64,000 nucleotides of DNA from Aromatoleum buckelii (GTDB lineage Bacteria > Pseudomonadota > Gammaproteobacteria > Burkholderiales > Rhodocyclaceae). The stretch covers positions 62,001-126,000 of the forward strand of contig NZ_WTVH02000010.1 in assembly GCF_012910785.2 (NCBI RefSeq), in the 5' to 3' direction. This document shows positions 10,389 to 59,427 of the stretch, one piece after another. The position numbers and the translations under genes were made by a program. The notes beneath the pieces are model-generated. The model did not search any database. It was not told the DNA's origin and worked only from the letters and a program-made list of their open reading frames with translations. The stretch's first letter is position 1, and each line of letters begins with the position of its first letter.

Positions 10389-10390
10389 AC

Positions 10391-10422: not shown

Positions 10423-10465
10423 GCCGCCGCCCGCTAGGCTGGCGGGCGGACGGCAGAGATGCGTC

Positions 10466-22706: not shown

Positions 22707-23144
22707 GCTTGGATTCCCCCCCGACCGCCCTGCGAGCGACGCCAGGCCGGAGCGGGGTTGCTGTTGAAACGATGCGCAGGAAACTGGATGCCCGACCCCT
22801 GCGGGTTTTCCGCAAGGCTGTGCTGCGGGAGCCGCGAAATTCTATACGAGTTCGCATTGCGGGCCGTTTTCGGCTGTGCTGGAACTTCATGGAATTTTCA
22901 GGATAGGCGATGGATGCAGCGGATAGCGACGAAACCGCTGCGCCGGTATCAATGGCGGTATCCGCAACAGGGCCTTGCGCGCGCCGATGAAAAGCATGAC
23001 CGGTATCGGCTGTTGGCGTTCCCGGAGCGGTATCCCTGCGCGTCCGGGCGATTCGGTCCGATGCCGGGGCAAGGGTTCCACGACTCGACGAACCGGGACG
23101 ACCGTCCCTTTTTCTCCACTCACGTCTCGCGAAGGAGTCACTCC
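22707..23144. promoter_or_regulatory. Regulatory region ahead of the molybdenum hydroxylase operon
   Basis: No gene. It holds GGATAGGCG-N11-GGATAGC at 22901-22927, repeated exactly in form at 36389-36415 before the PadBCD-like operon. It also contains four copies of CGGTATC at 22944, 22956, 23001 and 23028. The divergent CheB-CheR-PAS gene starts at 22706, so leftward promoter elements must also lie here. Confidence 0.65.
22901..22927 (+). promoter_or_regulatory. Shared bipartite direct-repeat site (copy A)
   Basis: GGATAGGCG, 11 bases, GGATAGC: the GGATAG cores are 20 bp apart, about two helical turns, as for AraC/XylS-type dimers. The site begins 244 bases upstream of the first gene start. 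The preceding bases ATTTTCA also resemble ATTTCCG at the second copy. Confidence 0.6.
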
Positions 23145-24014
23145 ATGAGTAGTCGAATATTGCCGGACTTCGATCTTCTGCTGCCGAAAAGCCTTGCGGA
23201 AGCGGTCGAGCTGCTGGCGACGCACGGGCAGCGCATCACCGTGATGGCCGGCGGCACCGACGTGCTGGTCGCGATGAAGTTCACGCAGTCGCCGGAATAC
23301 GTCATGAGCCTCGACGGCATCCCCGGGCTCGGATATGTCGTGTTCGATGCGGCGAAAGGGCTGCGCATCGGCGCGAAGGCGACGATCGCGGACCTGCTGG
23401 CGCAGCCGGAAGTGAAGCAGCATTACCCCGCGCTGTGGCACGCCGCCGAAATCTTCGCGACCGGCCAAGTGCGCAACACCGCGACCGTGCTCGGCAACCT
23501 GCTGCGCGCGTCGCCCGCCGGCGACTGCAGCTGCGCGATCTACGCGATCGGCGGCAAGCTCATCTTGCAGCGCACGGACGGCCGGCGCGAAGTCGATATC
23601 GACGACTTCTGGCTGTCGTACGGCGTCACTGCGCGCGAGCCCGACGAGCTTGCGATCGAACTCGTCCTGCCGCCGCCGGCCATCGGCGCGCGCAGCGCTT
23701 TCAAGCGCATGACGCGCACGAACGACGACCTGTCGAAGCTAAACGTCGCGGTGCAGCTCGAGATGCTCGGCAACACCTGCGTCGAGGCGCGCTTCGCGAT
23801 GGGCTGCGTCGCGCCGACGCCGCTGCGCCTGAGGAACACCGAGGCGCTGCTCAAAGGCCGGGAGATCACCGCGGAGTTGCTCGCGCGCCTCGTCGAGTCC
23901 GTGCCGTCGGAAATCAGCCCGATCGACGACAAGCGTTCGACCGCCGAATACCGCCGGCAGGTTTCCGGCGTTTTGCTGAAGCGCGCGATCGAGGAAGCGT
24001 GCAGCGCCGCCTGA
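23145..24014 (+). CDS. Molybdenum hydroxylase, FAD subunit
   Basis: 289-residue FAD-binding subunit of a three-part xanthine-dehydrogenase-family enzyme. It carries electrons from the [2Fe-2S] subunit to an acceptor. AGGTDVLVAMK (residues about 35-45) and GNLLRASPAGDC (about 116-127) are the usual FAD-binding segments. The extra loop of about 40 residues that binds a [4Fe-4S] cluster in 4-hydroxybenzoyl-CoA reductase is absent, which argues for a hydroxylase and not a benzoyl-CoA-type reductase. GAAGGAG precedes the ATG. First gene of the operon FAD, [2Fe-2S], Mo. Confidence 0.9.
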   Translation: MSSRILPDFDLLLPKSLAEAVELLATHGQRITVMAGGTDVLVAMKFTQSPEYVMSLDGIPGLGYVVFDAAKGLRIGAKATIADLLAQPEVKQHYPALWHAAEIFATGQVRNTATVLGNLLRASPAGDCSCAIYAIGGKLILQRTDGRREVDIDDFWLSYGVTAREPDELAIELVLPPPAIGARSAFKRMTRTNDDLSKLNVAVQLEMLGNTCVEARFAMGCVAPTPLRLRNTEALLKGREITAELLARLVESVPSEISPIDDKRSTAEYRRQVSGVLLKRAIEEACSAA

Positions 24015-24072
24015 CCGAACCGACCCGAACCGACTTGAATCGGCGGGCGCCGATCTTCACGAGGAGACAGAA

Positions 24073-24588
24073 ATGAAGGATGCAGCGATCACCCTCCATA
24101 TCAATGGAGAGGAACACAAGCTCAATGTGGCCGTCAATCGCACGCTGCTCGAAGTGCTGCGCGACCAGCTCGGCATGACCGAAACCAAATACGGCTGCGG
24201 CACCGGCGAATGCGGCGCCTGTACGGTGCTCGTCGACGACCGGGCGATCAATTCGTGCCTCGCGCTCGCGGCGACGATGGACGGCAAGCGCATCACGACT
24301 GCCGCCGGGTTCGCGCACTTCGGCGAGCTCAACCACATCCAGCAGGCGTTCAACGACGAGGCGGCGATCCAGTGCGGCTACTGCACGCCCGGGATGATCG
24401 TGAAGACGGCGAGCCTGCTGGCGAAGAACCCGGACCCGACCGAGCACGAAATCCGCCACGCGCTCGAAGGCAACATCTGCCGCTGCACCGGCTACGAGAA
24501 AATCGTCAAGGCGGTGCAGAAAGCCGCCCGCACTGCGCCGGGGCGCACCGTCAAGGCCGACGCGGCCTGTCAGGAGGTGGCGCAATGA
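24073..24588 (+). CDS. Molybdenum hydroxylase, [2Fe-2S] subunit
   Basis: 171 residues with both expected clusters: the plant-ferredoxin type (Cys42, 47, 50 and 62 in [13 protein letters not shown]) and the helical type (Cys101, 104, 136 and 138 in CGYCTPG and CRCTGY). It relays electrons between molybdenum and FAD. An extra C-terminal stretch of about 20 residues follows the usual end. Its TGA overlaps the next ATG, so translation of the Mo subunit is coupled to it. Confidence 0.95.
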
Positions 24589-26963
24589 ACGCGGAAACCA
24601 TCGTCGGCACGAGCGCACAGCGCGTCGACGTCAAGGACAAGGCGACCGGCCAGGCGCTCTACGCGGCCGACATCCAGCTCCCCGGCATGCTGTACGGCAA
24701 GGTGGTGCGCTGCTGGGAGCACGCGCACGCGCGCGTCGTGCGCCTCGACCTGTCGCAAGCGGCGAAATCGCCCGGCGTCGTCAAGGTGCTCGGCCCGGCG
24801 GACGTCACGCGGAACAAGTACAACTCGTCCGTCATGGACCTGATGGTGTCCGCGCAACTGCACGACATGCTCGGCGACATCGACGACCAGGACATCTTCA
24901 CGACGCACGTCAAATACCAGGGCGACGCGATCTGCGGAATCATCGCGAAGTCCGAAGAGGCCGCCGAGCGCGCGGCGGCGAAAGTCATCGTCGAATACGA
25001 GCCGCTGCCGGTCTACCTGACTGCCGAGGCGTCGAAGCAGCCCGACGCAGTCCAGTTCACGCCGCAAAAGCCGGGCAACCGGGCGTTCCAGCTGCCTGAA
25101 GCGATGTTCCCCGGCAACGCGCTCGGCGGCGGCGACGTCGATGCCGCGATGCAGGACGCGGACATCGTCGTCGAGGACGTGTTCTACGTGCCGAAGCAGA
25201 AGCAGTGCCAGATGGAACCGCACGCGTACATCGCCAAGCTCGACAACGCCGGGCGGCTGACGTGCTGGACGTCGTCGCAGATGCCCAAGCTCGTGCAGGC
25301 GAAGCTCGCCAAGCTGTTCGAGCTGCCGATGAGCCGCGTCAAGATCAATGCGACCGTGATTGGCGGCGGCTTCGGCGCGCGGCTCGGGATGATTTCGGAG
25401 CCGCAGGCGTGCGCAATGGCGATGGCCGTGCCGGGCCACCCGGTCAAGCTGCAGACGCTGCGCGAGGAAGACTGGGCGATTTCGCCGAGCCGCCATCCGG
25501 GCAAGTACTGGATGAAGATCGGGCTCCGGAAGGACGGCACGCCGCTCGCGTGCGACGCGCGCTTCGAGAACTACAAGGGCGCTTATTACCTCGACGCGTC
25601 GGGCACCGCTTTCACCGCCGGCGCGTGGCTCGGCGGCATGTACAAGTTCCCGGCGCTGCGCTACAAGGGCGAATCGTATTTCACGAACCAAGGCCTGACC
25701 GGCGCGTTCCGCGGCTACGGCAACCCGCAGACGAACTTCGCGCTCGAACAGCTGATCGACCGCGCGTGCGCGCAGGTCGGTGCCGATCCGGTCGAATGGC
25801 GCAAGAAATGGCACAAGGGCGTTGGCGACGACGGCTGGTGCCCGGGCGTGACTTACCCGTCGTGCGCGCTCGACGAGTGCCTCGACCGCGGCGCCGCGGC
25901 GATCGACTGGGCGGCGAAGCGGCGCAAATATGCGAACCAGACCGGCACAAAGCGGCGCGGAGTCGGCTGCGCGGTGATGAACCACACCAGCGGCGCAATG
26001 CCGATGCTGCTCGAACATACCGTGTGCACCGTCAAGATCAACGAGGACGCGACTGCCGAAGTGGTCTTCGCGTGCTCGGACATGGGGCAGGGATCGCATA
26101 CGGCGCTGAAGCAGATCGCTGCCGAGACACTCGGCTTCCCGTTCGGTGACGTGCAGCTCGCGAATCCCGGGTCGGACGCCGGCTTCGACATCGGCGCGCA
26201 CGCGAGCCGCACGATCTACGTCGGCGGCGCAGCGGTGAAAGCCGCATGCGAGGACGCCAAACGGCAACTTTTCGCCCGCGCGAGCGAAGCGCTGCAGGTT
26301 CCCGCGGACCAGTTGGACATCCGCGACAAGAAGATCTTCGCGAAGAGCGACCCGGCGCGCTCGATCGACGTGGAGAGCATCACGCGGGCCGGCGTGTACC
26401 ATTTCATCGACCCGATGACCGGCAAGCCGGAAGGTGCGCCGGGGCAGATCCAGGGCTACGTGAGCTTCTTCGCGCCGCACAACTCGCCGCCTTTCGGCGC
26501 GTCGTTCGCCGAAGTCGAAGTCGACACCGAAACCGGTGAAGTGCGCGTGCTCGAGCTCGTCAACGCGCACGACATCGGCCGCGCGATCAACCCGGCGGCA
26601 GTCGAAGGGCAGCTCGAAGGCGGCATCCAGCAGGGCCTCGGCTTCGTGCTGAGCGAGGAGACGTACTACGACAGCCAGGGTCGGATGCTCAACAACAGCT
26701 TCACCGACTACAAGATGTTCGGGCCGAGCGACATGCCGAAGATCAAGACGATCCTCGTCGAGAACGCCGACCCGGTCGGGCCGTTCGGGGCGAAAAGCGT
26801 CGGCGAGTCGGGTCTCGTGAGCCCGGTCGGGGCAGTCGCGAACGCGATCTATCACGCGCTCGGCATCCAGTTCATGGAAGCGCCGATCACGCCCGAGAAA
26901 GTGTTGAAAGGGATCAACGAGAAAGGGCTGGGCGGCGCGCGCGAACGCGCTCGCGCTTGCTAG
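24585..26963 (+). CDS. Molybdenum hydroxylase, catalytic Mo subunit
   Basis: 792 residues, the expected size of the catalytic subunit. Molybdopterin-binding motifs GGGFGAR (near 259) and GAFRGYG (near 374) and the catalytic Glu in AKSVGES (near 742) are present. The family inserts a water-derived oxygen next to a ring nitrogen or activated carbon. The substrate cannot be read from the sequence. N-heteroaromatics (indole, quinoline or nicotinate type) are likely in view of the anthraniloyl-CoA gene and the isatin-hydrolase-like gene in the window; an aryl-CoA is an alternative. The cofactor is probably the cytosine dinucleotide form, matching the MocA-like gene at 48095. A terminator follows. 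Confidence 0.92.
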   Translation: MNAETIVGTSAQRVDVKDKATGQALYAADIQLPGMLYGKVVRCWEHAHARVVRLDLSQAAKSPGVVKVLGPADVTRNKYNSSVMDLMVSAQLHDMLGDIDDQDIFTTHVKYQGDAICGIIAKSEEAAERAAAKVIVEYEPLPVYLTAEASKQPDAVQFTPQKPGNRAFQLPEAMFPGNALGGGDVDAAMQDADIVVEDVFYVPKQKQCQMEPHAYIAKLDNAGRLTCWTSSQMPKLVQAKLAKLFELPMSRVKINATVIGGGFGARLGMISEPQACAMAMAVPGHPVKLQTLREEDWAISPSRHPGKYWMKIGLRKDGTPLACDARFENYKGAYYLDASGTAFTAGAWLGGMYKFPALRYKGESYFTNQGLTGAFRGYGNPQTNFALEQLIDRACAQVGADPVEWRKKWHKGVGDDGWCPGVTYPSCALDECLDRGAAAIDWAAKRRKYANQTGTKRRGVGCAVMNHTSGAMPMLLEHTVCTVKINEDATAEVVFACSDMGQGSHTALKQIAAETLGFPFGDVQLANPGSDAGFDIGAHASRTIYVGGAAVKAACEDAKRQLFARASEALQVPADQLDIRDKKIFAKSDPARSIDVESITRAGVYHFIDPMTGKPEGAPGQIQGYVSFFAPHNSPPFGASFAEVEVDTETGEVRVLELVNAHDIGRAINPAAVEGQLEGGIQQGLGFVLSEETYYDSQGRMLNNSFTDYKMFGPSDMPKIKTILVENADPVGPFGAKSVGESGLVSPVGAVANAIYHALGIQFMEAPITPEKVLKGINEKGLGGARERARAC

Positions 26964-26983
26964 TTTCGGCATTCGCTGCACAG

Positions 26984-27013
26984 AACGGCCGCCCGCGGGC
27001 GGCCGTTGTTTTT
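26984..27013 (+). terminator. Rho-independent terminator of the hydroxylase operon
   Basis: GC-rich stem with arms AACGGCCGCCC and GGGCGGCCGTT followed by GTTTTT. It separates the operon from the oppositely directed BON/START gene ending at 27057. Confidence 0.9.
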
Positions 27014-27056
27014 CCCCTGGCCGAAAACCGGAGACGACGCGGCCCGGGGCTCCGGC

Positions 27057-28232
27057 TCAGTGGAAGCGTTGTGCGTGTTCCGCAGCGCGTCCGGCGGCCG
27101 AGTCGCGGGCGGCGACGCCGGTTTCGAGGAAGGACTTCACGCGCATCAGGTCCTCGTCCATCTCGGTCTTAGCATCGCGCCCGAGCAGCCGCGCTGCCGC
27201 ATGACCGATCGCCCCGGCAGCGGGCGCGTAGTCCATCGACACTCGCAGCCGCGTGCCTTCGCCGGCGGGTTCGAAGTCGACATGCCCTTCGCTCTCGACC
27301 GGAGCACCCTCGACCGTGTGCCACGCGAGGCGGCGGTTCAGTTCGCGCTCGGTGATCCGGGCATCCCATTCGACCGGGCCGAACGGGCCGGCGACTTTCC
27401 AGTGCCAGCAGTCTTCGCCGGTCGGCCGCACTTCCTCGACGTTGCGCATGAACTGCGGGAAATTCTCCTGATGCTGCCAGAAGTCGAAGACGCGTTCGGG
27501 TGGCGCGGCGATGAACATTTCCTTATCGATGTGCACGCTGCGCGGCCCCGACGTTCCTGCGACTTCGCCGAGCTTGCGGTTTGCTAGCGCCCGTGTGACG
27601 AGCGCGCCGCCGAGCAACGCCTGCACCATGCCAAACGGACGGCTGCGCGACAGCCCCGCCAGCGTGAGTGCGCCGCCCGTAATCCCTGCGAGCAGCCGGA
27701 TCGAGGGCGGCCAGCTCTCGGCCATTCCCGCACCGCGGCGCCCTTCGTGCGCAAGGGCCCCTTGCAGCGCGGAAACGTTCCCCGGCTGCTCGTGCACCTG
27801 CATCTGGTCCTCGATGCCCGTGACGCCACGCACCGACCACACCGCGCTCATCAGCCGGTTCACTTCGCTCGCGAGTACCGGGCCGGACAGCACGACCGTG
27901 CCGTCGTCGCGCGCCTGCACCCTGAGCGCGTGTGAATTACGCACGACCCTGCCGATGCGCGCCCGCACGCGCTCTTCGATCTGATGCGCCGTCATCGGTT
28001 GCCGCCGCTCCGTACCGGGGCGCAGCCGCGCCGCGACACCGTAGCTGCGGTTGACCGCGTCGCGGTACGCGGTGTCGGCGAAGTGGGTCAGCCGGTTGCG
28101 CGTGCTCGTGAACTGGTCGGTGACCAGCGCGCGCCGGCGCCTGCCGACATCAGGATCGAACAGATACATCGCCAGCATCCCGAGGCTGAACCCGCGGATG
28201 GCCGATGTGACGCGACTCACATGGTTTCTCAT
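27057..28232 (-). CDS. BON and START/SRPBCC domain protein
   Basis: 391 residues; the start at MRNHVSRV is fixed by AAGGAGGATT six bases upstream. A hydrophobic stretch near the N-terminus (FSLGMLAMYLFDPDVGRRRR) may anchor it. A BON domain follows (about residues 85-150, VVLSGPVLASEVNRL), then a glycine-rich hydrophobic segment (about 180-220) and a C-terminal SRPBCC/polyketide-cyclase-like domain (about 235-370, FIAAPPERVFDFWQHQENFPQFM). This arrangement occurs in envelope or stress proteins of unknown role. Monocistronic. Confidence 0.85.
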   Translation of the reverse strand: MRNHVSRVTSAIRGFSLGMLAMYLFDPDVGRRRRALVTDQFTSTRNRLTHFADTAYRDAVNRSYGVAARLRPGTERRQPMTAHQIEERVRARIGRVVRNSHALRVQARDDGTVVLSGPVLASEVNRLMSAVWSVRGVTGIEDQMQVHEQPGNVSALQGALAHEGRRGAGMAESWPPSIRLLAGITGGALTLAGLSRSRPFGMVQALLGGALVTRALANRKLGEVAGTSGPRSVHIDKEMFIAAPPERVFDFWQHQENFPQFMRNVEEVRPTGEDCWHWKVAGPFGPVEWDARITERELNRRLAWHTVEGAPVESEGHVDFEPAGEGTRLRVSMDYAPAAGAIGHAAARLLGRDAKTEMDEDLMRVKSFLETGVAARDSAAGRAAEHAQRFH

Positions 28233-28689
28233 TCCAATCCTCCTTGCCGGTCGCTGCAACAACAGGAACAACGACCCTGGCTTCGTGAAGTTGGCACCGT
28301 CGACGCGGTCGCCACGGATGACGGCGAGCGTCGGCCTCGCCCGGTCGGCCCTCGAGGGGCCGATGCGGACTCACGAAGGAGCGGTGGCAAGAAACATTCC
28401 CCGCGGGAGTCCCGCCGCGGTGCCGAAAAGCGGGCGGCGGAATGTAAAAACAGGGTCCCGCAAGCGGCTGTTACGCTGTGACTGCCGTGATTACGCCTCT
28501 GTTGAATACCTGTCCACTTACAGAAACATCGCGAAATTCCGAAGGGCGTGGCAGAGTCGGGGGCTTCCCGGCGGGCATATGCGCTCGAGCGGCAAGAAGT
28601 TGCGGCAGTGCCGACCTGCCGGCCGTTAGACTAAGGTATGAGAAGGGGCGGCAACAGCCCCGAATACAACCCCGATGAAAGGAGAGATC
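28233..28689. other. Intergenic region between divergent genes
   Basis: 457 bases between the BON/START gene (leftward) and the AHSA1-like gene (rightward). No supportable gene. A moderately AT-rich stretch around 28480-28540 may contain promoters. The AAAGGAG ribosome site for the right-hand gene lies at 28678-28684. Confidence 0.4.
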
Positions 28690-29136
28690 ATGCCTGCCGG
28701 TACTGTCCGCCTGCACCGCGTGCTGCGCGCAAAACCCGAGAAGATCTACCGTGCTTTCCTCGATGCGGAAGCGCTCGCCCGATGGCTGCCGCCGAACGGC
28801 TTCACCTGCAAGGTCGACCATCTGGACGCCAAGGTCGGCGGCACTTTCAGGATGACGTTCAGGAATTTCGGCTCGGGCAGCAGTCAATCCTTCGGCGGCA
28901 GTTATCTGGAACTCGTGCCGAACGAGCGCATCCGCCACACGGACAAGTTCGACGACCCGAACCTGCCCGGCGAAATGGTGATGACGCTCACCCTGCGCGC
29001 AGTGCTCTGCGGTACGGAGGTGCATATCGTGCAGGAAGGCATTCCGGAGGCGATTCCGCCGGAATTCTGCTACCTCGGGTGGCAGGAGTCGCTCGAACAT
29101 CTGGCGCGGCTCGTCGAGCCGGAAATTCCGGGTTGA
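28690..29136 (+). CDS. AHSA1/SRPBCC-family protein
   Basis: 148 residues from MPAGTVRLHR. The upstream ATG at 28675 is part of the AAAGGAG site and is rejected. It is typical of the small Aha1/SRPBCC family (RAKPEKIYRAFLDAEALARWLPP at the start, C-terminal WQESLEHLARLVE). Such proteins bind small hydrophobic ligands or act as stress factors; no specific function can be given. After its stop the same frame remains open and protein-like for about 30 codons (29155-29247, RATAIVARFGLPTS), perhaps a remnant of another gene. Confidence 0.85.
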   Translation: MPAGTVRLHRVLRAKPEKIYRAFLDAEALARWLPPNGFTCKVDHLDAKVGGTFRMTFRNFGSGSSQSFGGSYLELVPNERIRHTDKFDDPNLPGEMVMTLTLRAVLCGTEVHIVQEGIPEAIPPEFCYLGWQESLEHLARLVEPEIPG

Positions 29137-29251
29137 AGCCGCAGCCCCGACCGTTACTCCGGAGATCGCGCGACGGCCATTGTCGCGCGCTTCGGCCTGC
29201 CCACCTCTATCGAAGCGCTGCTGGCCGAGCCGGCGGCGATGAGCTGAAACG

Positions 29252-30286
29252 ATGATGTCAGTAATATCCACGCCGGGGATCGTCGATCTGGTCGGTGCCG
29301 GGCGCGGCGATGCCGAGCTGCTGACCGCTGCGGTCGAATGGCTGCAGTGGCTGCAGCTGCCGCTTTGCGCCGTCGTCGCCGTCGGCCTCGACCGCGTGCT
29401 CGGCGAACCGCGCCGCTTTCATCCGCTGGTCGGTTTCGGCCGGCTGGCGCAACGCATCGAAGCCGCGCTGCGCCGCTTCCCGACGCGGCACAACCGGCAA
29501 AAAAATGCCGGCATCGCCGCCTGGCTGCTGGCCGTGCTGCCTTTCGCCGGCGTTGCGCTGTGGCTGCGCAATATCGGGCCGGCCTGGCTGGTGGTCGCGC
29601 TCGATGTCGTCCTGCTCTACTTTGCGCTCGGTGCACAGAGCCTGCGCGAACACGTGCTGCCGATCGCCGACGCGCTCGACGCCGACGACCTGCCCGCCGC
29701 GCGCGAAGCCGTGGGCCGCATCGTCTCGCGCGACACCACGGCGCTCGACGAGACGGCAGTCGCGCGCGCCGCGGTCGAATCGACGCTGGAAAACGGCAGC
29801 GACGCGGTGTTCGGCGCGCTGTTCTGGTTCGCGTTGCTCGGCGGCCCGGGCGCCTTGCTCTTCCGCCTCGCCAATACGCTCGACGCGATGTGGGGCTACC
29901 GCAACGAACGCTACCTTCACTTCGGCTGCGCGGCAGCGCGTTTCGACGACCTGCTGGGTTACTTGCCGGCTCGCCTTTGCGCGCTCACCTACGCGGCGCT
30001 CGGCCGCGGGGGCCAGGCGCTGGCGTGCTGGCGCGCGCAGGCACCGCTGTGGGACAGCCCGAACGCCGGGCCGGTGATGGCCGCGGGCGCCGGCAGCCTC
30101 GGCGTGAGCCTGGGTGGCGCGGCGGTGTATCACGGGCAGCGCGAGGCCCGCCCGACGCTGGGCGTCGGATCGGCGCCCATAGCGGCCGACATCCGTCGTG
30201 CGCTGACGCTGGTTCGGCGCGGCATCGGCCTGTGGCTGACGGCCGGTTTGGTGCTGGCACTGCTCGGGGGAGCGTTCCATGCTTGA
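29252..30286 (+). CDS. cbiB: Adenosylcobinamide-phosphate synthase
   Basis: Membrane protein of the CobD/CbiB family, 344 residues, that attaches aminopropanol or its phosphate to adenosylcobyric acid in B12 synthesis. Family signatures: [17 protein letters not shown] near residue 47, [22 protein letters not shown] near 170, and [16 protein letters not shown]. Several hydrophobic segments. Eight bases overlap with the next gene, a PLP enzyme supplying the aminopropanol phosphate, so they form a two-gene B12 unit; no other B12 genes are in the window. Confidence 0.95.
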
Positions 30287-31310
30287 ACACGGCGGGCGCC
30301 GTCGTGCTGCGGCCAGGCGTTATGGAATCCCCGAAGCCGACTGGCTGGACCTGTCGACCGGCATCAGTCCGCACGCTTATCCGGTGCCGGCCATTGCGGC
30401 CGAAGACTGGCTGCGTCTGCCCGAAGACGACGACGGCCTGCTCGACGCTGCCACGGCGTACTACGGCACCGCGCGGCTGGTCGCGCTGGCCGGCTCGCAA
30501 CAGGCGATCCAGGGCCTGCCTTTCCTGCTGCCGCGCGGCCGCGTCGGCGTGCTGGCGCCGACCTACGCCGAACACCCGCATCACTGGCAGCGCGCCGGCC
30601 ACGAGGTGATCCGTTTTGCGGCCGCAGCGCTGCCCGCCGTCGCGGACACGCTCGACACGCTCGTGGTTTGCCAGCCGAACAATCCCGACGCCGGCTGTAT
30701 CGCGCCGGCGGTCCTGATCGACGTCGCCGAACGCCTGCAGGCGCGCGAAGGCCATCTGGTGGTCGACGAAGCTTTCATCGACGCGACCCCTGAGGCTTCA
30801 GTGATCACGCTGGCCGGCGCGCGCCTGCCGAACCTGATCGTCCTCCGCTCGCTGGGCAAGTTCTTCGGCCTCGCCGGTGCCCGTGTCGGCTTCGTCGCCG
30901 CCCGCCCGGACCTTCTGACCGCGCTGCGCGAAGCGGCCGGGCCGTGGCCACTGTGCGGCCCGGCACGCACGGTGGCGCGCCGGGCGCTCGCCGACACCGC
31001 GTGGCAGGACGTCATGCGGCGCACGCTCGCCGAAGCGAGCGCACGCCTCGCCCGGCTGCTCGCACCACTCGACCCGCAGGGGGCGCGGCGCGTGAATCCG
31101 CTGTTCGTCTGGCTGCCCACTCCGGCGGCCGAATCGATCGCGGCTGCGCTGGCGCGCCAGGGCATCCTGGTCCGCCATTTCGCGGCGCCCGATTGCCAGG
31201 GCTTGCGCTTCGGCCTGCCGGGGGCGGAAAACGACTGGCAGCGCCTTGAAGCGGCAATTCGTGCGCTGACCGGCCCGGCGACGCGCAACGATTCCGGCGC
31301 GACGGCATGA
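30279..31310 (+). CDS. cobC: Threonine-phosphate decarboxylase (PLP enzyme, B12 pathway)
   Basis: 343-residue aminotransferase-fold protein: [13 protein letters not shown] near the N-terminus, CQPNNPDAG for PLP contact and the Schiff-base Lys in [11 protein letters not shown]. It converts threonine phosphate to aminopropanol phosphate, the substrate used by CbiB. The overlap with cbiB supports the role over a general histidinol-phosphate aminotransferase. The name cobC follows Pseudomonas usage; the Salmonella name is cobD. Confidence 0.92.
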
Positions 31311-31621
31311 CGTGCGCCTGTTGCCGCGCTGCCCGCTGCGCTCGACAACTGCCGCTGCGGAATCAAAGACCGTAGTCGGCCCGAATGCAGAATTTTCCGG
31401 CCGGTGCAAGACTTGCCCGCCGCACCCCGCCAAATCCACGACGTGCCCGGACAAGAAGTCCGCGCTGAACGGTGATGCCGGCTACGGCGCGGCCTTGCAC
31501 CCGTGCCCTGCCGCGGAACCGTTCTTGCTCGCGCAGCCGCACCGGCAAATCCGTTTCGCGCGGGCGGCATTCGATCCGGGTCCCGTGCAGCCGGCGTCTC
31601 CACTCACTGAAGAGGTGTCCC
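31311..31621. other. Intergenic region before copper-storage gene
   Basis: 311 bases without a supportable gene. It must hold the promoter of the copper-storage gene; no clear metal-regulator dyad was found. A ribosome site (GAGGTG) lies just before 31622. Confidence 0.35.
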
Positions 31622-31957
31622 ATGGCTCATCAGAAATACGCGTCGTGTGTCGAAGCCTGCAACGCCTGCGCCGACGCTTGCGACCACTGTTCGACCGCCT
31701 GCCTGCAGGAGCCCGACATCAAGATGATGGCGCGCTGCATCGCGCTCGACATCGACTGTGCCGCGATCTGTCGTCTCGCGGCCGGCTGCATGGCGCGAGA
31801 CAGCGAGTTTGCGAAGCAGGTCTGCCAGCTGTGCGCGACTGTCTGCGAAGCCTGCGGCGACGAGTGTGCGAAGCATCAGAATCCCCACTGCCAGGAGTGC
31901 GCCCAGGCCTGCCGCCGCTGCGCTGAGGAGTGCCGCCGCATGAGTGCCGGTGGCTGA
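31622..31957 (+). CDS. Csp-like four-helix copper-storage protein
   Basis: 111 residues with 20 cysteines, mostly as CxxC, CxxxC and single Cys spaced along helices (CVEACNACADACDHC, CEACGDECAKHQ). This is the DUF326/Csp pattern, in which a four-helix bundle stores many Cu(I) ions in its core. No signal peptide, so it resembles cytosolic Csp3 more than exported Csp1. It may complement the cus exporter at the left of the window. A terminator follows at 32055. Confidence 0.9.
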   Translation: MAHQKYASCVEACNACADACDHCSTACLQEPDIKMMARCIALDIDCAAICRLAAGCMARDSEFAKQVCQLCATVCEACGDECAKHQNPHCQECAQACRRCAEECRRMSAGG

Positions 31958-32054
31958 CCGGCGCGCGGGCAGCGCCGAGTTCAAGCCGGCATGACGTGGC
32001 CGAGGCCTTGTGCCCGCGTTGTCGAACGACGGATCCCTCCGCATCGCTCCTTCG

Positions 32055-32078
32055 GTCGCCTTTGGGCGGCTGTTTTTT
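32055..32078 (+). terminator. Rho-independent terminator
   Basis: Six-pair stem GTCGCC/GGCGGC (one G-U pair), TTTG loop, followed by TGTTTTTT. About 100 bases after the copper-storage gene. Confidence 0.75.
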
Positions 32079-32182
32079 CGTCGTGATCTCGATTGCGTCC
32101 TCCTGCAGCAAGTCCGAAGGGGAGAGTCGATTCGGTTCATCACAAGAAAATTGGCATAATTGGTAGAAGAAGTGACGATTAG

Positions 32183-32482
32183 TGGTCACTGCCGGACTTC
32201 GTCGTCCTCATCGGCGACGGCAGCGGCGGGCGCGACCCAATGAGGAGCAATCCGCTACACCTCATCGTCCAAATCAAGGGCTACCGCCGCGAGGACGCGA
32301 AGGAGAAGAAGGCCACGATGGACACCTACTGGGTGCCGGGCGTGAACACCCACGCCAGATACGGCTACTGGGCTTTCGCCGAGTTTGCCGACGGGTGGCA
32401 GATGCAGAACGACTTCGCCAGGAAGGTGGAGGCGAAGTTCGAGCGGATGATCGAAGCAGTCGCCGGCGAGGCAGTGCAATGA
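32183..32482 (+). pseudogene. 3' remnant of a restriction-enzyme/helicase (Res) gene
   Basis: About 99 codons readable after an in-frame stop at 32180: DFVVLIGDG, LHLIVQIKGYRRED, TYWVPGVN and WAFAEF. This matches the C-terminal end of Res-type DEAD-helicase restriction subunits, where the IKGYR region belongs to the nuclease part. The helicase body and the partner methylase are absent. The ATG at 32240 is internal and unlikely to be a real start. With the adjacent fic gene it suggests a decayed defence module; the surroundings look less GC-rich than most of the window. Confidence 0.75.
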
Positions 32483-32536
32483 GCCCCGCCAATGCTCCGA
32501 CCGTCGGCCGAATGTATGGGGCTTTCTGGCGTGACG

Positions 32537-32606
32537 TGTATCGAGAGCGGCGCCTTTCTATACAGGTCGAGAGCAATGTGTATAGGAAACCGGCTTTTTC
32601 TATACA
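32537..32606 (+). promoter_or_regulatory. Twin palindromic operators before fic
   Basis: Two inverted repeats of identical geometry: TGTATCG-N14-CTATACA (32537-32564) and TGTATAG-N14-CTATACA (32579-32606). Their starts are 42 bp apart, four helical turns, so two dimers would sit on the same face. The second site ends 21 bases before the fic start. The winged-helix end of the Fic protein is an obvious candidate binder. Confidence 0.75.
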
Positions 32607-32627
32607 CGTTCAGCGTGTGGGGCGGTG

Positions 32628-33725
32628 ATGATGACCGATCTTGCACCGCTTCAGACGCTCCTCCCGAGCCGCTTCGATACCCCAGACATTCTCAAGAAGC
32701 TCGCCACGGCCAGCCGTCAACTGGCCGAACTGAAGGGCGTTGCAGCGACCATTCCGCACCAGGGCATCCTGATCAACACTCTCGGTATCCAGGAAGCCAA
32801 GGATAGTTCCGCGATCGAAAACATCGTTACCACGCATGACGAGTTGTTCAAGGACGAAGCCGCGGCAGACGACGGCGCATCGCCGGCAACCAAGGAAGTC
32901 CTGCGCTACCGCCAGGCATTGTGGCTGGGCTACCAACTGGTGCGTGAGACCGGCCTGCTGACCAACAATCACATCCTGCAGGTTCAGATCGAGCTCGAGT
33001 GCAACCATGCCGGGTTCCGTAAGCTGCCCGGAACCGCGCTCAAGAACGGCATGGGCGAAGTCGTCTATACGCCGCCGCAGCACCCCGAGCACATTTCCGG
33101 CTTGATGGATGACCTCGAGCGCTTCATCAACGATGCCGCCGCGTTCGACGCCGACCCCCTGATCAAGATGGCGCTGATCCACCATCAGTTCGAGAGCATC
33201 CACCCTTTCTACGACGGCAATGGCCGCACCGGCCGGATCGTCAACGTCCTGTATCTTGTGAAGCAGGGACTGCTCGACATTCCGGTGCTCTATCTGAGCC
33301 GCTACATCGTCCGCACCAAGCCGGACTACTACCGGCTGCTGCAGGAAGTGCGGGATCGCGACAGCTGGGAGGAGTGGGTCATGTACATGTTGACCGCCGT
33401 GAAGGAAACCGCGGCGGAGACCATCGCCACGATCCATGCGATCCGGACGACGCTGCTCGACGTAAAGCACCGAATCCGCTCGAACTATCGCTTCTACAGC
33501 CAGGATCTCATCAACAACTTGTTCACCCACCCGTACACCAAGATCGAGTTCCTGCAGAACGATCTCAAGGTGTCGCGGCTCACCGCTACCAAGTATCTCG
33601 ACAGGCTGGCGGCTGACGGTCTACTCGAAAAGCGCAGAATCGGGCGTACCAACTACTACATCAACACCCCGCTTTACGCGATCCTGACGGCACCCGTCAT
33701 GCAGCGCGACAGCACGGCCGTATGA
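32628..33725 (+). CDS. Fic-family adenylyltransferase with winged-helix C-terminus
   Basis: 365 residues counted from the first ATG; a GTG lies just before it. The N-terminal Fic_N-like region contains the inhibitory-type motif SSAIENI (class II Fic, inhibitory helix before the core). The Fic core carries the full HPFYDGNGRTGR motif, so AMP transfer is possible. The C-terminal 80 residues form a winged-helix DNA-binding region (KIEFLQNDLKVSRLTATKYL). Twin palindromes upstream suggest autoregulation. It lies beside a restriction-gene remnant, as such Fic genes often do. Targets unknown. Confidence 0.92.
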   Translation: MMTDLAPLQTLLPSRFDTPDILKKLATASRQLAELKGVAATIPHQGILINTLGIQEAKDSSAIENIVTTHDELFKDEAAADDGASPATKEVLRYRQALWLGYQLVRETGLLTNNHILQVQIELECNHAGFRKLPGTALKNGMGEVVYTPPQHPEHISGLMDDLERFINDAAAFDADPLIKMALIHHQFESIHPFYDGNGRTGRIVNVLYLVKQGLLDIPVLYLSRYIVRTKPDYYRLLQEVRDRDSWEEWVMYMLTAVKETAAETIATIHAIRTTLLDVKHRIRSNYRFYSQDLINNLFTHPYTKIEFLQNDLKVSRLTATKYLDRLAADGLLEKRRIGRTNYYINTPLYAILTAPVMQRDSTAV

Positions 33726-33827
33726 TCAGGCCAAGAGAGTAGCGGTCGAGATCGACATCACGATTTCCTGTCCCTGATATCCACCAGCCATCCCGAACTG
33801 AAGAGCGCGGTGCAAATTACGTAGTGA

Positions 33828-34322
33828 CTACTGCCGGCCTTGCTCGCGCCGCTCCTGCGGGGTCAGCGCTTTCTTTAACACGATGTCATCGGCGAGGATA
33901 TGGTTCTGGCCGCGCGTCGAGACGACGCCTTTCACGATCACCGCGCAAGAGCGGTTGCAGGCTTCGAGGATCCGCAGCCGTAGCTCCCGGTCGAGCTGGT
34001 CGGTTCTGACCTGAATCGTGTTCGCGCTCGGCAACCGTTTCCCCAGAGACACGAGGCCGGGTTCGGCCAAGGTGGAAATCTCGCCTTCTACCTCGACTTT
34101 TTTTCCCCTGTGGCCACTGAGGTTGACCCACAGCTCGCGAAAGTCGAGCGTCGTGTATGGCCCGGAGCCGACCTGCGTCTGCGCGCTTCGGAACGCCTCG
34201 TCGTAGCAGGCCAGCCGTGCGGCGTCTTCGTCGATGTGCCGGCACTCGGCGGGATCTGCCGCCGCTGCCGCTTGTGCCACGCAGGCGAGCGCCGCACAGC
34301 GCGCCCATCGAAGACTGTTCAT
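33828..34322 (-). CDS. Exported protein of unknown function
   Basis: 164 residues starting MNSLRWARCAAL behind AAAAGGA. A signal peptide ends near AAAAADPAEC. The mature part begins CRHIDEDAARLACYDEAF, a Cys-containing helical motif seen in several proteobacterial exported proteins, and later has a beta-rich region (KVEVEGEISTLAEPGLVSLGK) that looks like an OB-type fold. Not recognised further. Probably periplasmic. Confidence 0.75.
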   Translation of the reverse strand: MNSLRWARCAALACVAQAAAAADPAECRHIDEDAARLACYDEAFRSAQTQVGSGPYTTLDFRELWVNLSGHRGKKVEVEGEISTLAEPGLVSLGKRLPSANTIQVRTDQLDRELRLRILEACNRSCAVIVKGVVSTRGQNHILADDIVLKKALTPQERREQGRQ

Positions 34323-34404
34323 TCCTTTTCCTCGAAATAAACATCCACTATCCGGGCATCGCCACACACACGGTTGGAGCAGGGCCGACGAGGCTGACGG
34401 TCAG

Positions 34405-34785
34405 CTACTTTACGACCTGCCGGGAAACCGAAAGGTATTCGTCGCCATGCTGGACGACGCTTTCCCGATCCAGTTTTTCGGACGCCTGATGCAGCTTCTC
34501 CAGCGTCTCGGCGAGCTTCGTCAATTCCTCGTTCATCTTCCCCAGCGCGTTTTCCAGGGTGTACGTCAACACGTGCACGTCGGCCATCGCCGCATCGCTC
34601 ACATTGCCCTTGAGAATGGCTTCGAGCTTGGCGTTGTATTCGGAAAAGGTCTTTACGGCTTCAGGCAGGGTCTCTACCGGCTTGCCTTTGTAATGCCTGA
34701 TCGCTTCGTCCGCCCCTGATGCGAAGGCGGGTGGAACGAACGCGATGGCAACGAGGATCGCTGCAATGACGACAGGCTTCTTCAT
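34405..34785 (-). CDS. Small exported helical protein (DUF6746-like)
   Basis: 126 residues, signal peptide MKKPVVIAAILVAIAFVPPAFA, then a mostly helical domain (HYKGKPVETLPEAVKTFSEY and VHVLTYTLENALGKMNEELT). The pattern matches small periplasmic DUF6746 proteins as I remember them; function unknown. The start is chosen for the clear signal peptide; the longer frame upstream has none. Confidence 0.75.
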   Translation of the reverse strand: MKKPVVIAAILVAIAFVPPAFASGADEAIRHYKGKPVETLPEAVKTFSEYNAKLEAILKGNVSDAAMADVHVLTYTLENALGKMNEELTKLAETLEKLHQASEKLDRESVVQHGDEYLSVSRQVVK

Positions 34786-34925
34786 TCTTTGCTCCCGGGA
34801 TTTTGCGCATATGAAAACAATTCGCATTCATTTTAACAGGTGGATCAGGGCTGCGACCGTGAGTTCGGGCAACGGCTTCCCAGGGGGCGATCCAGGAGCA
34901 TCCGCCCGGCCTGCTGAATCGGCGA

Positions 34926-36149
34926 TCAGGGAAGAAACTGACGGCGCCCGGCATGGGGTCGGGGATGGTAAATTTTCCGCCGCCGGGCCAGCACCAACAG
35001 ATTTCGCGGCGTCAGCGCGCGGGGGCAAAAAGTGCCGACCTCGACGTCGAACCCGGCCTCTTCGAACCCGAGCGCGAGATCCATGACGAGCCAGGTCTCC
35101 AGCGCGCGCCGGAACGCGTGACGAACGAGCTCGAAGCGCCGCACTTCGGCACGGCGGCGCTCGCCGCTCGCGAGCCAGTGCGTCCAGTCGATCGCCGCGG
35201 GGAGATGCACGCGCTCGCGCTGCGCCAGGGCTTTGCAGAAGCCGGCGAAGTCGCCCGACAGCCACGGTGACGGCACCGGGCGGAAAGGGCGGATCGCTTC
35301 GCCTTCGAGCGCGTTGCGCAGCGCAATGAAGCCGAGCTTCCACGCCTGGTCGCGGGCGAGGCGCTGTCGCACGTGGCGGGGGGCGGTGACGGTCTCGGTC
35401 ACCGCGAGGCGCAGCGCCGCGGCGTCGAGCGGCAGCGAAGCTTCCGAACTCAACGGACGGTAGCCGTCGTCGGCGCCGAGGTGGTAGCAGCAGGGCGCGA
35501 TCCGGTAGCTGTGCGCGCGGTCGTCGGCGGCGGAGCGCACGAGCGTGCGGTGCAGCTCGCCGCACGCGTGGAGTGCGACGACGGCGTGGCCGCGGACGTG
35601 CTCGCGCGACCCGGGGGCGAGCGCGTCGGCGCACAGTACGGTCTGCTCGATGCCGGCGCGCCGGGCGAGGCGTTGCGCCGCTTCGCACAGCGCCGGGTCG
35701 AGCTCGAGAGAGCTGACCGGCATCCGGTCGGCCAGCGCGAGGCGCCTTCCCAAGTGCCCTTTGCCGGCACACCACTCCAGCAGCGGGGCATGGGCGGCCG
35801 GCCCGTGCGCGGCGAAAGCTTCGACCTGCTCGCGCTTGCGTCCGGGAATCGACCAGTCGAACCGGGTGTCGACAGGCGGCAGCGCGCGGGGGGCGAGGGC
35901 CGGCATGTGGCACAAGGCTTCGAGCATGCCGACGATCGGCAGCCGGGGCGCGAGCCACGCGCGGCACGCGGCGGGATCGGCGATGAATCGCTCGAGCGCG
36001 GGTTCGTCGAGTCCGAGCACCGCTCCGGCGAGCGCCGGCCACTGATCGCACCATGCGGGGCGCGGGACGTGAAACGGCTGCGGCCGCCATAGCGATTGGT
36101 GTTGCAGCAGCACCGACTGCAGGTCGAGAAGGCGTTCGCGGTGGTTCAT
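34926..36149 (-). CDS. SAM-dependent methyltransferase of unknown substrate
   Basis: 407 residues from MNHRERLLDLQ. The central region has Rossmann methyltransferase features: LLEWCAGKGHLGRRLA (motif I, near 130), SLELDPALC and VVALHACGELHR, the last resembling the METTL25/RRNAD1-type methyltransferase-32 group. A conserved CCYHLG follows. The substrate (rRNA or protein) is not evident. It is transcribed divergently from the PadBCD-like operon, with the shared regulatory region in between. Confidence 0.8.
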   Translation of the reverse strand: MNHRERLLDLQSVLLQHQSLWRPQPFHVPRPAWCDQWPALAGAVLGLDEPALERFIADPAACRAWLAPRLPIVGMLEALCHMPALAPRALPPVDTRFDWSIPGRKREQVEAFAAHGPAAHAPLLEWCAGKGHLGRRLALADRMPVSSLELDPALCEAAQRLARRAGIEQTVLCADALAPGSREHVRGHAVVALHACGELHRTLVRSAADDRAHSYRIAPCCYHLGADDGYRPLSSEASLPLDAAALRLAVTETVTAPRHVRQRLARDQAWKLGFIALRNALEGEAIRPFRPVPSPWLSGDFAGFCKALAQRERVHLPAAIDWTHWLASGERRRAEVRRFELVRHAFRRALETWLVMDLALGFEEAGFDVEVGTFCPRALTPRNLLVLARRRKIYHPRPHAGRRQFLP

Positions 36150-36252
36150 CGGTTGGGAGCAGCCGGTTGGAAGGCGTGATTCAGGGGGCGACAGGAACGC
36201 GGGCGGGAAAGTCCTGATGCCCGCCCGCATGCTGCCGGCGAGCGGACTAATT

Positions 36253-36290
36253 GGCAACTGCGGGCAACTGCGGCAACTGCGGGCAAGCGC
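36253..36290. repeat. 19-bp tandem repeat in the divergent promoter region
   Basis: GGCAACTGCGGGCAACTGC followed directly by a second copy with two changes. Each unit is itself built from two 9-10 bp GGCAACTGC units, giving four phased near-repeats about 100 bp upstream of the bipartite site at 36389. Possibly a regulator-binding array. Confidence 0.7.
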
Positions 36291-36388
36291 GGCACTGGAA
36301 GCGCGATTCCGGCGCACAGAAACCCGGTGCCCAGCCCCGCATTTTTTGCGCCGCGTTCTCCGCGGTCTGCGAAAGACGGGCATTTCCG

Positions 36389-36415
36389 GGATAGGCGCCG
36401 CAACCACGGGATAGC
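36389..36415 (+). promoter_or_regulatory. Shared bipartite direct-repeat site (copy B)
   Basis: GGATAGGCG, 11 bases, GGATAGC: identical in both halves and in spacing to the site at 22901-22927. It ends 66 bases before the PadB-like ATG, close to where an AraC-type activator would touch RNA polymerase. Confidence 0.65.
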
Positions 36416-36481
36416 TGCACTGCGGCGACTCCCATAACTTCAGCACGGTGAGCAGTCGAGAAATTCCAACGAGGAGCTGCA

Positions 36482-39085: not shown

Positions 39086-39699
39086 TGGCGAAGTGGGGCA
39101 TGGTTTTCGACCTGCGGCGCTGCATCGGCTGCAACGCCTGCGCGGTCGCGTGCAAGCAGGAGAACAGTCTGCCGAACGGCGTGTTCTTCACGAAGACGCT
39201 GAGTGAAGAGGTCGGCGAGTATCCGCACGCGACGCGGACCTACATTCCGACGATCTGCAACCACTGCGAAGACGCGCCGTGCGAGCGGGTCTGTCCGACG
39301 GGCGCGACGTGGACCCGCGCCGACGGTATCGTCATGGTCGATCGCGACAAATGCATCGGCTGCGGCTCCTGCATCGTCGCGTGTCCATACGACCAGCGCA
39401 CGCGCCTCGAGCCGGAGATGCTGCAGCAGGGGCTGTTCGGCAACGGGCGGCTGACGCCGTTCGAGGAGCAGGGCCTCACGCGCTTCACGGTCGGCACGGT
39501 CGTCAAATGCACGTTCTGCCACGAGCGCGTCGATGCCGGCCAGGAGCCCGCGTGCGTCGCGACGTGCCCGACCGAAGCGCGCATCTTCGGCGACTTGGAC
39601 GATGCGCAAAGCCGCGTGCGGCAGCTGATCCAGGAGCACCGGGCGCGCCAGCCGCTGGCCGACAAGAACACCAATCCGCGCGTTTTCTATATCGACTGA
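39085..39699 (+). CDS. PadC-like ferredoxin subunit
   Basis: 204 residues holding four [4Fe-4S] Cys groups in the DmsB/NrfC arrangement: CIGCNACAVACK, CNHCEDAPCERVCP, CIGCGSCIVACP and CTFCHERVDAGQ with later CVATCP. It wires the molybdenum subunit to the membrane partner. The ATG overlaps the padB-like stop (TGATG), so translation is coupled. Confidence 0.92.
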   Translation: MAKWGMVFDLRRCIGCNACAVACKQENSLPNGVFFTKTLSEEVGEYPHATRTYIPTICNHCEDAPCERVCPTGATWTRADGIVMVDRDKCIGCGSCIVACPYDQRTRLEPEMLQQGLFGNGRLTPFEEQGLTRFTVGTVVKCTFCHERVDAGQEPACVATCPTEARIFGDLDDAQSRVRQLIQEHRARQPLADKNTNPRVFYID

Positions 39700-41736: not shown

Positions 41737-42747
41737 ATGACCCACGCGCTCGTGAGGACGCTGGGGGGGCGTGATCCGCTTTCCCGCTATGCGTTGTTCC
41801 AGACCACGGATGCGGAAGAGGCGCGCGACCGCGTTGCCGACATATTCTGCCCGCATGAACTGAAAATCGCCGGACGCGGCGGCGCCGTCGACGCCTGTAT
41901 GCAGCACGCACGGATTCGCGGCGTGTCGCTGAACCGGCTGCGCTACGGCCCGACGGTGGAGATCGACGCCGGCTGCCTGAAGGATTTCGTGCTGGTGATG
42001 ATGCCGATGCTCGGAAGCGCGGACATCCATTGCGGTAGCCAGCATATCCGCTCGACGCCCGAGCTCGCGTCGGTCGTAACTCCGACGCAGAATCTGTCGC
42101 AGACGGTGAATGGCGGCTGCGACCAGATCATGGTCAGGATCGACCGCGCGCTGCTCGAGAGCGTCTGCGCGCAGCTGCTCGGGCACGAGCTGTCCGAACC
42201 GGTCGAATTCCGGCTCGGCATGGAAATGTCGAGCCAGGGCGGCGTGAGCTGGCAGGTGCTCGTGTCGCATCTGGCGTCGGAACTCGAACGCGAGGCGCCG
42301 ATGCTCGGCTCGTCGCTGGCGATGGCCCAGATCGAACATCTGCTGGTGACGACGCTGCTGATGGTGCAGCCGAACAATTACCGCGACGCGCTGCTCGACC
42401 CGCCGCAGTCGATCGCGCCGCGCCACGTCCGGCGCGTCGAGGAGTTCATCGAGGCGCACGCGGACCAGGAGCTGACGATCGGCGATCTCGCCGCGCATGC
42501 GAAAGTCAGCACCAGCGCGTTGTTCGCCGGATTCCGCGAATTCCGCAACACCACGCCAATGGCCTACCTCAAGTCGGTGCGCATGGCGCGGGTGCACGAG
42601 GAACTGCGAAGCCCCTCGTCAGCCGACAAGACCGTGACGAATATCGCGATGCGCTGGGGCTTTCATCACCTCGGCCATTTCGCCACCGACTACCGCAACA
42701 AGTACGGCGAATGTCCTTCGCGCACGCGCGAAAGGGCGCGCGGCTGA
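41737..42747 (+). CDS. AraC/XylS-family transcription regulator
   Basis: 336 residues: an N-terminal ligand domain of the AraC-binding-like type (residues 1-210) and two C-terminal helix-turn-helix units (LTIGDLAAHAKVSTSALFAGFREF and VTNIAMRWGFHHLGHFATDYRNKYG). This is the XylS/FeaR-like layout used by activators of aromatic degradation. A strong GGAGGAGGAG site precedes it. Direct-repeat sites of the kind expected for such a protein (GGATAG cores 20 bp apart) lie before both molybdenum-enzyme operons, so it is the best candidate regulator of both. This is an inference. Confidence 0.9.
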   Translation: MTHALVRTLGGRDPLSRYALFQTTDAEEARDRVADIFCPHELKIAGRGGAVDACMQHARIRGVSLNRLRYGPTVEIDAGCLKDFVLVMMPMLGSADIHCGSQHIRSTPELASVVTPTQNLSQTVNGGCDQIMVRIDRALLESVCAQLLGHELSEPVEFRLGMEMSSQGGVSWQVLVSHLASELEREAPMLGSSLAMAQIEHLLVTTLLMVQPNNYRDALLDPPQSIAPRHVRRVEEFIEAHADQELTIGDLAAHAKVSTSALFAGFREFRNTTPMAYLKSVRMARVHEELRSPSSADKTVTNIAMRWGFHHLGHFATDYRNKYGECPSRTRERARG

Positions 42748-42861: not shown

Positions 42862-43107
42862 ATGACAGCACTGGGCAATGTGATGATGCTCATTCGGGAA
42901 CTCGAGCAAGACGACGCGGCCGCCGACGCGCCGGTGACGCAGGCGCGCAGCGGGATCGATTTCCCCGCAGCCTGTTCGTGCGTGTGCGCCTCGTCACTGG
43001 GCGAAGTCGTCGCGCTCATCCACGAGATGCAGGGCGACAGCCTGAGGGCGTTCATGGATTCCCTTCCGCCGGTGAAAGGACGAAAGACCGCGACCGTCGC
43101 CGCGTGA
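42862..43107 (+). CDS. Small protein of unknown function
   Basis: 81 residues with a very good ribosome site (GGAAGGAGGAAAGG before ATG), which is the main reason to accept it. It has a central CSCVC motif and two helical, hydrophobic-faced segments (VMMLIRELEQDD and LGEVVALIHEMQGDSLRAFM). No recognised family. Sits between the regulator and the FadH-like gene; CSCVC may bind metal. Confidence 0.6.
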   Translation: MTALGNVMMLIRELEQDDAAADAPVTQARSGIDFPAACSCVCASSLGEVVALIHEMQGDSLRAFMDSLPPVKGRKTATVAA

Positions 43108-54887: not shown

Positions 54888-54894
54888 GGTTTCC

Positions 54895-59426: not shown

Positions 59427-59427
59427 G

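Follow-up and report, generated by a model that had tools for sequence, protein, structure and literature searches.

A shared operator of the XylS/BenR type probably places two molybdenum-enzyme operons of Aromatoleum buckelii in one regulon

Two operons of Aromatoleum buckelii that encode molybdenum enzymes of the xanthine dehydrogenase (XDH) and dimethyl sulfoxide (DMSO) reductase families are preceded by the same bipartite site, GGATAGGCG-N11-GGATAGC. Both lie in a 64-kb stretch of contig NZ_WTVH02000010.1 (positions 62,001 to 126,000, forward strand), referred to here as the window and numbered from its first base. The sites, their conservation and positions, and the families of the genes concerned were established computationally. 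In all probability, the two sites are operators of a single XylS/BenR-type class-II activation regulon run by the AraC/XylS-type protein encoded at 41737. The operators and the promoter elements proposed to go with them are the following (handles beginning with G, L and C denote genomes, loci and contigs, respectively).

22891..22926, plus strand: operator 1, before the xanthine-dehydrogenase-type operon; GGAA-N6-GGATA (22891-22905), GGCGA, TGGA-N6-GGATA (22911-22925), G
22947..22952, plus strand: putative -10 element TATCAA, 20 bp past GGATAG; T and A fit TAnnnT, the last T does not
36379..36414, plus strand: operator 2, before the DMSO-reductase-type operon; GGCA-N6-GGATA (36379-36393), GGCGC, CGCA-N6-GGATA (36399-36413), G
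36435..36440, plus strand: putative -10 element TAACTT, 20 bp past GGATAG; fits TAnnnT

The two copies of the bipartite pattern reported by the first-pass annotation are exact and lie on the plus strand at 22901-22927 and 36389-36415; the first start codons that follow, at 23145 and 36482, lie 244 bp and 93 bp from the first base of the respective site. With up to three mismatches allowed, the window contains no further match to the full pattern; at the same tolerance, shuffled versions of the window yield 0.52 matches on average and at least two matches in 7 of 100 cases. The sites are not a duplicated segment, since the sequences around them and between their halves are unrelated (identical at 20 of 60 positions on the upstream side, at 4 of the 11 spacer positions and at 24 of 60 downstream). 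Across the genome (4,161,042 bases in 10 contigs), 31 places match the full pattern with up to three mismatches: 2 are the exact copies, 1 has a single mismatch and the other 28 have three. A reversed control pattern reaches 30, so nothing short of an exact copy is conspicuous.

Aligning the sites of relatives, 35 in all (12 before dmsA, the gene for the molybdenum subunit of the DMSO-reductase-family enzyme; 10 before XDH genes; 7 before an operon with Ycf48-like, RND and DUF1329 genes; and 6 others) gives the operator the form [nGnA-N6-GGATA]-N5-[YGCA-N6-GGATA]G, that is, two 15-bp direct repeats with a period of 20 bp. TAnnnT begins at +46, exactly 20 bp past GGATAG, in 17 of these sites and at +47 in 5 more, with none at offsets 30-45; taken singly, T, A and T are found at +46, +47 and +51 in 29, 24 and 27 sites (the column tallies include one misaligned row, from G308, which was corrected in the matrix described below). 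The halves and the spacing of the originally described site stand, but that description was incomplete: the site is longer, each repeat has a 5′ sub-motif, a -10 element follows at a fixed distance, and there are further targets.

A scoring matrix built from the 35 sites of relatives, with the window sites excluded, assigns 38.0 bits to operator 2 and 31.4 bits to operator 1, and no third place in the window exceeds 8 bits; the maxima in 15 Markov shuffles of the plus strand range from 0.1 to 14.7. Applied to 628,127 bases from chosen loci of relatives, the matrix finds 22 matches above 18 bits (13 before dmsA, 7 before the RND operon and the two window sites), a scan that gauges false positives only because many of these loci were chosen around such genes.

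The first-pass annotation had named wide scattering of the motif through the genome as an outcome that would speak against a regulon. The whole genome contains three exact copies of the relaxed core GGATA-N15-GGATAG, which are the two window sites and one place in a CRISPR array (contig C5, L009 about 9000-12000), which is also the one-mismatch match to the full pattern. The CRISPR repeat, GATTCCCCCGCGTCCGCGGGGATAGGCCC, ends in GGGGATAGGCCC and so mimics half an operator, which accounts for this third match. With up to one mismatch the core occurs at 45 places: the 3 exact ones, 25 one-mismatch places in the array and 17 elsewhere, compared with 6 for the reversed core; these 17 score 8.2 bits at most. 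The array match at C5:103636 (10.4 bits) was dropped as a third member of the regulon, and its three-mismatch neighbours C5:105465, in the same array, and C5:110656, outside it, are not claimed. Neither are the pad (phenylacetate) cluster (L231:19749) and an RND/DUF1329 homologue (L232:9443), both on contig C4, where one-mismatch cores score below 8 bits.

The operator class itself is already known. According to published work, XylS binds two TGCA/GGTA repeats through a proximal and a distal monomer (PMC5481539), and the sites of BenR, XylS and CphR consist of TGCA-N6-GGNTA repeats next to the core promoter (PMC6449761, PMC1360089, PMC6205950). The generic definition of such a site (TGCA-N6-GGNTA twice, period 20 or 21, at most three mismatches) selects only operators 1 and 2 in the 64 kb, with 3 and 2 mismatches over both repeats, respectively; the 3′ boxes of both operators are perfect and the 5′ boxes imperfect (GGAA and TGGA; GGCA and CGCA). 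Judged by sequence, the window sites are operators of the XylS/BenR type in their direct-repeat form, in the proximal repeat at the -35 position and in the matching distance of the putative -10 element, in agreement with the earlier suggestion of an AraC/XylS-type regulator, which had pointed to direct repeats 20 bp apart; the repeats are TGCA-N6-GGNTA-like and adjoin the core promoter.

The candidate regulator is the protein encoded at 41737, as had been pointed out.

41737..42747, plus strand: AraC/XylS-type regulator, proposed binder of operators 1 and 2; PF14525 and PF12833

Both domains of this protein score above their cut-offs (the N-terminal AraC_binding_2, PF14525, at 149.0 bits and the C-terminal HTH_18, PF12833, at 68.8 bits), which by sequence makes it a member of the AraC/XylS family, and the genome encodes no second homologue at E<=1e-40. 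Its DNA-binding part is identical to that of XylS at 35 of 107 positions, most clearly in the second helix-turn-helix (HTH) region (GF-HLG-FA--Y, GE-PS), a likeness that would fit the better conserved GGATA box. From these features we infer that the 41737 protein binds the operators and activates transcription. A dimer would bind the two 15-bp repeats, and the downstream repeat would occupy the -35 place, 20 bp before the -10 element, where the protein would replace the missing -35 element and recruit RNA polymerase (class-II activation). An intermediate of the pathway would co-induce the two operons, the second with its isatin-hydrolase gene. A small open reading frame of 81 amino acids (42862-43107, plus strand) lies between the regulator gene and the following flavoprotein gene; A. 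tolulyticum has one of 79 amino acids at the same place (L102:14460-14699), without an NCBIfam match and likened to it by position only.

The genes behind the two operators, and those that follow the regulator gene, are as follows.

23145..24014, plus strand: FAD subunit of the xanthine-dehydrogenase-family molybdenum hydroxylase; PF00941, PF03450
24073..24588, plus strand: [2Fe-2S] subunit; PF01799, PF00111
24585..26963, plus strand: molybdenum subunit; relatives among solved structures
36482..39085, plus strand: molybdenum subunit of the DMSO-reductase family (dmsA); 29-33% identical to the copy beside the pad genes
39085..39699, plus strand: iron-sulphur subunit; PF13247
39726..40628, plus strand: membrane anchor of the DmsC/NrfD type; PF04976, PF03916
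40693..41481, plus strand: probable isatin hydrolase; PF04199; isatin hydrolase A 5nna
43256..45226, plus strand: flavoprotein resembling old yellow enzyme (OYE) and 2,4-dienoyl-CoA reductase; by homology
45318..45710, plus strand: RidA-type enamine/imine deaminase; PF01042

In relatives, the site is retained before the same genes. One genome scan supplied 29 loci, 26 of which have a close dmsA homologue (62-88% identity; L038-L040, at 24-37%, are excluded from the dmsA counts), and in three (L013, L024 and L033) fewer than 400 bases precede the gene concerned, which for L024 affects the XDH promoter. The core is present within 400 bp before dmsA in 12 of the 26 (10 without mismatch, 2 with one) and stands 93-151 bp before the start codon; these loci belong to Aromatoleum species (A. 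evansii twice), Glaciimonas and metagenome-assembled genomes (MAGs) labelled beta- or gammaproteobacterial. Before XDH genes, the core is exact in six loci (G300-G305), the second A. evansii copy and Telmatospirillum, and carries one mismatch in G310 and two in G306; a degenerate variant before XDH in two alphaproteobacterial loci, L032 and L236, is no more than suggestive. Four genus-mates outside the matrix (G592, G453, G604 and G365, with dmsA 98, 94, 88 and 87% identical) all have the site before dmsA, at 41.1-42.0 bits, as well as before the XDH operon.

The site also precedes other genes. A third target, the operon of Ycf48-like, RND, DUF1302-like and DUF1329 genes, has it in seven loci. 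In Glaciimonas (L226), it stands before OYE-iorAB, so that the homologue of the 43256 flavoprotein (85%) has its own copy, and, with one mismatch, before isatin hydrolase. The isatin-hydrolase gene itself carries the site in G310, where pad genes follow it, G321 and G615; in G307 the site precedes an XDH-like operon (33-50% identical), and in G303 and G615 it lies in the promoter of mobB, which is divergent from a paralogue of the regulator (46-47%). Since the same site is kept before the same genes and isatin hydrolase in relatives, the genes appear to form a single pathway under joint control.

The search of related genomes proposed by the first-pass annotation bears out this picture: 17 genomes of the genus (G300, G301 and G303-G305 among them) hold 42 exact cores, of which 36 are followed by XDH, dmsA, isatin hydrolase, Ycf48/RND operons or mobB. 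In 35 cases the distance to the first gene is at most about 310 bp; in the remaining one (G303 C17:520) an RND gene follows after 1.3 kb. The reversed core occurs twice across 16 of the 17 genomes. The 6 cores elsewhere are the CRISPR match (10.4 bits), single places in G303 (-7.8) and G604 (7.2), two in G529 (10.0 and 2.7) and an orphan site in G417 (22.3), which occupies the position of the window's XDH operon in a locus where that operon is missing (L311). All 11 genomes whose regulator is at least 46% identical have exact cores, versus 2 of the 6 others (G417 and G529), and only 1 of these 6 when a matrix score above 18 is required; the Fisher test gives p=0.006 for exact cores and p=0.001 for the score, for related genomes that are not independent. 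In A. evansii (G301), which has two regulon sets (contigs C177, C243 and C264), six exact cores stand at two copies of three operons, and two regulator genes accompany the two sets.

Several observations weigh against the proposed regulon. The core is missing before dmsA (at least 2 mismatches) in 14 of the 26 loci, which come from Telmatospirillum, Emcibacter and other MAGs labelled alpha-, delta-, gamma- or unclassified proteobacteria, and before XDH it has 2-3 mismatches at best in L026, L027, L030 and L032. G400 and G445, with a regulator 57% identical, have only weak forms (20.6 and 13.9 bits) 720-860 bp before dmsA, and G423 and G432, whose regulator is 54-55% identical, show no site close to their dmsA homologues (60%); G430 has a 25.2-bit site about 750 bp before a 62% homologue. 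In the window itself, the 5′ sub-motifs of operator 1 (GGAA, TGGA) fit poorly. Finally, G615 has no dmsA match and no neighbouring regulator, yet its isatin hydrolase-OYE-rid genes are still preceded by the site (L310); with only the 46% paralogue left, that paralogue can probably use the same site.

This last point lends some weight to an unlikely alternative, in which the operators are real and of the same class but are served by another AraC/XylS-type protein or by several paralogues in common, as the paralogue next to the site-bearing mobB promoters of G303 and G615 would suggest; against it, the window genome encodes the single protein found at E<=1e-40 within the cluster itself, and A. 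evansii pairs two sets of sites with two regulator copies. Far less probable is binding by a repressor, or by some unrelated global regulator common to molybdenum enzymes, such as one for anaerobiosis or molybdate. Both enzymes require molybdenum, and mobB has the site in two genomes, but no matrix match above 8 bits surrounds the pad cluster of the same genome with its DMSO-type enzyme (L231), relatives have the site before non-molybdenum genes (isatin hydrolase, OYE-iorAB, RND transport), and direct repeats at the -35 position are the form typical of AraC/XylS activators. Coincidence, or functionless promoters of shared ancestry, would have to be invoked on the grounds that the sixteen fixed bases were chosen after the fact and that orthologous promoters have a common origin; given the same site before three different operons in Aromatoleum genomes, the unrelated flanks of the window sites and the -10 distance kept across operons, the probability of this is negligible.

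As for the pathway, in nine relatives the genes of the two molybdenum enzymes lie no more than about 7.4 kb apart (about 7.4 kb in L015 and L016, 4.6 kb in L022, and less than 1.5 kb in L023, L024, L026, L027, L030 and L032), which supports the earlier proposal that the two operons serve one pathway, independently of the motif. All listed NCBIfam models, including the 4-hydroxybenzoyl-CoA reductase and xanthine dehydrogenase equivalogs, remain below cut-off for the 23145-26963 subunits, so the enzyme is assigned to the xanthine dehydrogenase family and its substrate is not assignable from the models; the closest solved structures to the 24585 subunit are 4-hydroxybenzoyl-CoA reductase, 6-hydroxypseudooxynicotine dehydrogenase and quinoline 2-oxidoreductase. 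The product of 40693-41481 is probably an isatin hydrolase, as it aligns with 5nna over residues 6-260 of 262 (E=1e-93) with an identical HTGTHFDAP, which we take to be the metal-binding motif of that enzyme. PadBCD is the phenylacetyl-CoA oxidoreductase; 36482 was ruled out as the PadB of the pad cluster because a separate, 29-33% identical DMSO-type copy sits on contig C4 beside the phenylglyoxylate-dehydrogenase genes PadE, PadG and PadI. In G400 (L317) and also in G445, a second DMSO-type gene set, with dmsA about 60% identical, lies close behind the first.

Oxindole and isatin have long been regarded as intermediates of anaerobic indole breakdown, and those reported under nitrate are oxindole, isatin, dioxindole and anthranilate; on the enzymes, a 2018 review offers only speculation (PMC6221969). 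In the most likely pathway, the molybdenum hydroxylase would convert indole to oxindole, the DMSO-reductase-family enzyme would use water to oxidize the oxindole CH2 to a ketone (isatin), isatin hydrolase would open the ring to give isatinate, and a 2-oxoacid oxidoreductase, of the phenylglyoxylate-dehydrogenase or Ior type, would form 2-aminobenzoyl-CoA; reduction and deamination by the OYE-like enzyme and RidA would follow. In A. tolulyticum (L102), the PadE, PadG, PadH and PadI models score above cut-off between isatin hydrolase and the regulator, and tblastn finds the same gene order in L104 and L318. A point against this scheme is that the window genome lacks pad-type genes in the operon; its sole PadG match is on contig C4, so the conversion of isatinate would fall to that enzyme or to the Ior proteins encoded nearby. 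The chances are about even that, in denitrifiers of the Aromatoleum type, the regulon encodes every step from indole to 2-aminobenzoyl-CoA without the use of oxygen, and that one XylS-type activator, sensing an acid of the pathway such as isatinate or anthranilate, switches on the whole set, to which some relatives add transport genes and mobB, for the molybdenum cofactor; chemistry, substrates and inducer are all proposed.

Somewhat less probable, yet to be taken seriously, is that the regulon is real and serves another substrate, such as indoleacetate, phenylacetate, or another N-heteroaromatic or hydrophobic compound. The DMSO-type enzyme and the pad-type genes resemble phenylacetate metabolism, relatives add the RND/DUF1329 transport operon, iorAB lies nearby, and an anaerobic indoleacetate (iaa) locus is reported for A. 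evansii and A. aromaticum (PMC9613470). What speaks for indole is the isatin-hydrolase gene inside the operon, with a site of its own in G310, G321 and G615, and the existence of a separate pad cluster for phenylglyoxylate in the same genome.

Elsewhere in the window, a TRAP transporter (DctP, DctM, DctQ), IorA, IorB and NnrS are encoded in one orientation at 51975-59961 (minus strand). The IorA-like gene (about 54910-57071, minus strand) shifts its reading frame in this assembly, within a stretch rich in proline and alanine around residue 400, through either a sequencing error or a real defect, and the frame of IorB (53292-54887) is open. A 59% DctM homologue adjoins the site-bearing XDH-like operon of G307 (L109). 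Two Mutator-family transposase genes are located at 12083-13321 (minus strand) and 18521-19774 (plus strand).

Among the titles and abstract openings listed in literature searches, which covered few subscription papers, none describes this regulon or the genes of anaerobic indole degradation. The shared, conserved operator supplies the question of anaerobic indole breakdown with a coherent set of genes and with a regulator, and makes that question directly testable.

Among known systems, the pad cluster of denitrifiers likewise has a three-part DMSO-type oxidoreductase with a membrane anchor, and A. tolulyticum has phenylglyoxylate-dehydrogenase-type genes within the same cluster as the DMSO-type enzyme; however, identity between the window enzyme and the pad-side copy is only 29-33%, and the former is accompanied by isatin hydrolase. 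The best NCBIfam model for the 41737 protein is AndR, the regulator of anthranilate dioxygenase (NF041686), but with 182.6 bits against a cut-off of 350 the protein is related to AndR rather than the same. The operators of BenR and CphR share the TGCA-N6-GGNTA repeats and belong to other regulators and to aerobic aromatic operons; the repeat pair at Pben of P. fluorescens is 5 bp apart, with the same period of 20, just upstream of -35 (PMC1360089), and the CphR repeats lie at -35 to -49 and -55 to -69 (PMC6205950). A further parallel is XylS-Pm of the TOL plasmid pWW0, with two direct TGCA-N6-GGNTA repeats at the core promoter, read from the pWW0 sequence as TGCAAGAAGCGGATA and TGCAAAAAATGGCTA, and a regulator with an AraC-type double HTH. 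It differs in a period of 21 at Pm versus 20 in the window operators and in the 5′ sub-motif, which is degenerate in the window regulon (nGnA/YGCA), so that the 35-site matrix gives Pm only 1.5 bits (13.1 with a gap of 21 allowed); and, unlike the XylS-Pm system, the window encodes enzymes of oxygen-independent kinds.

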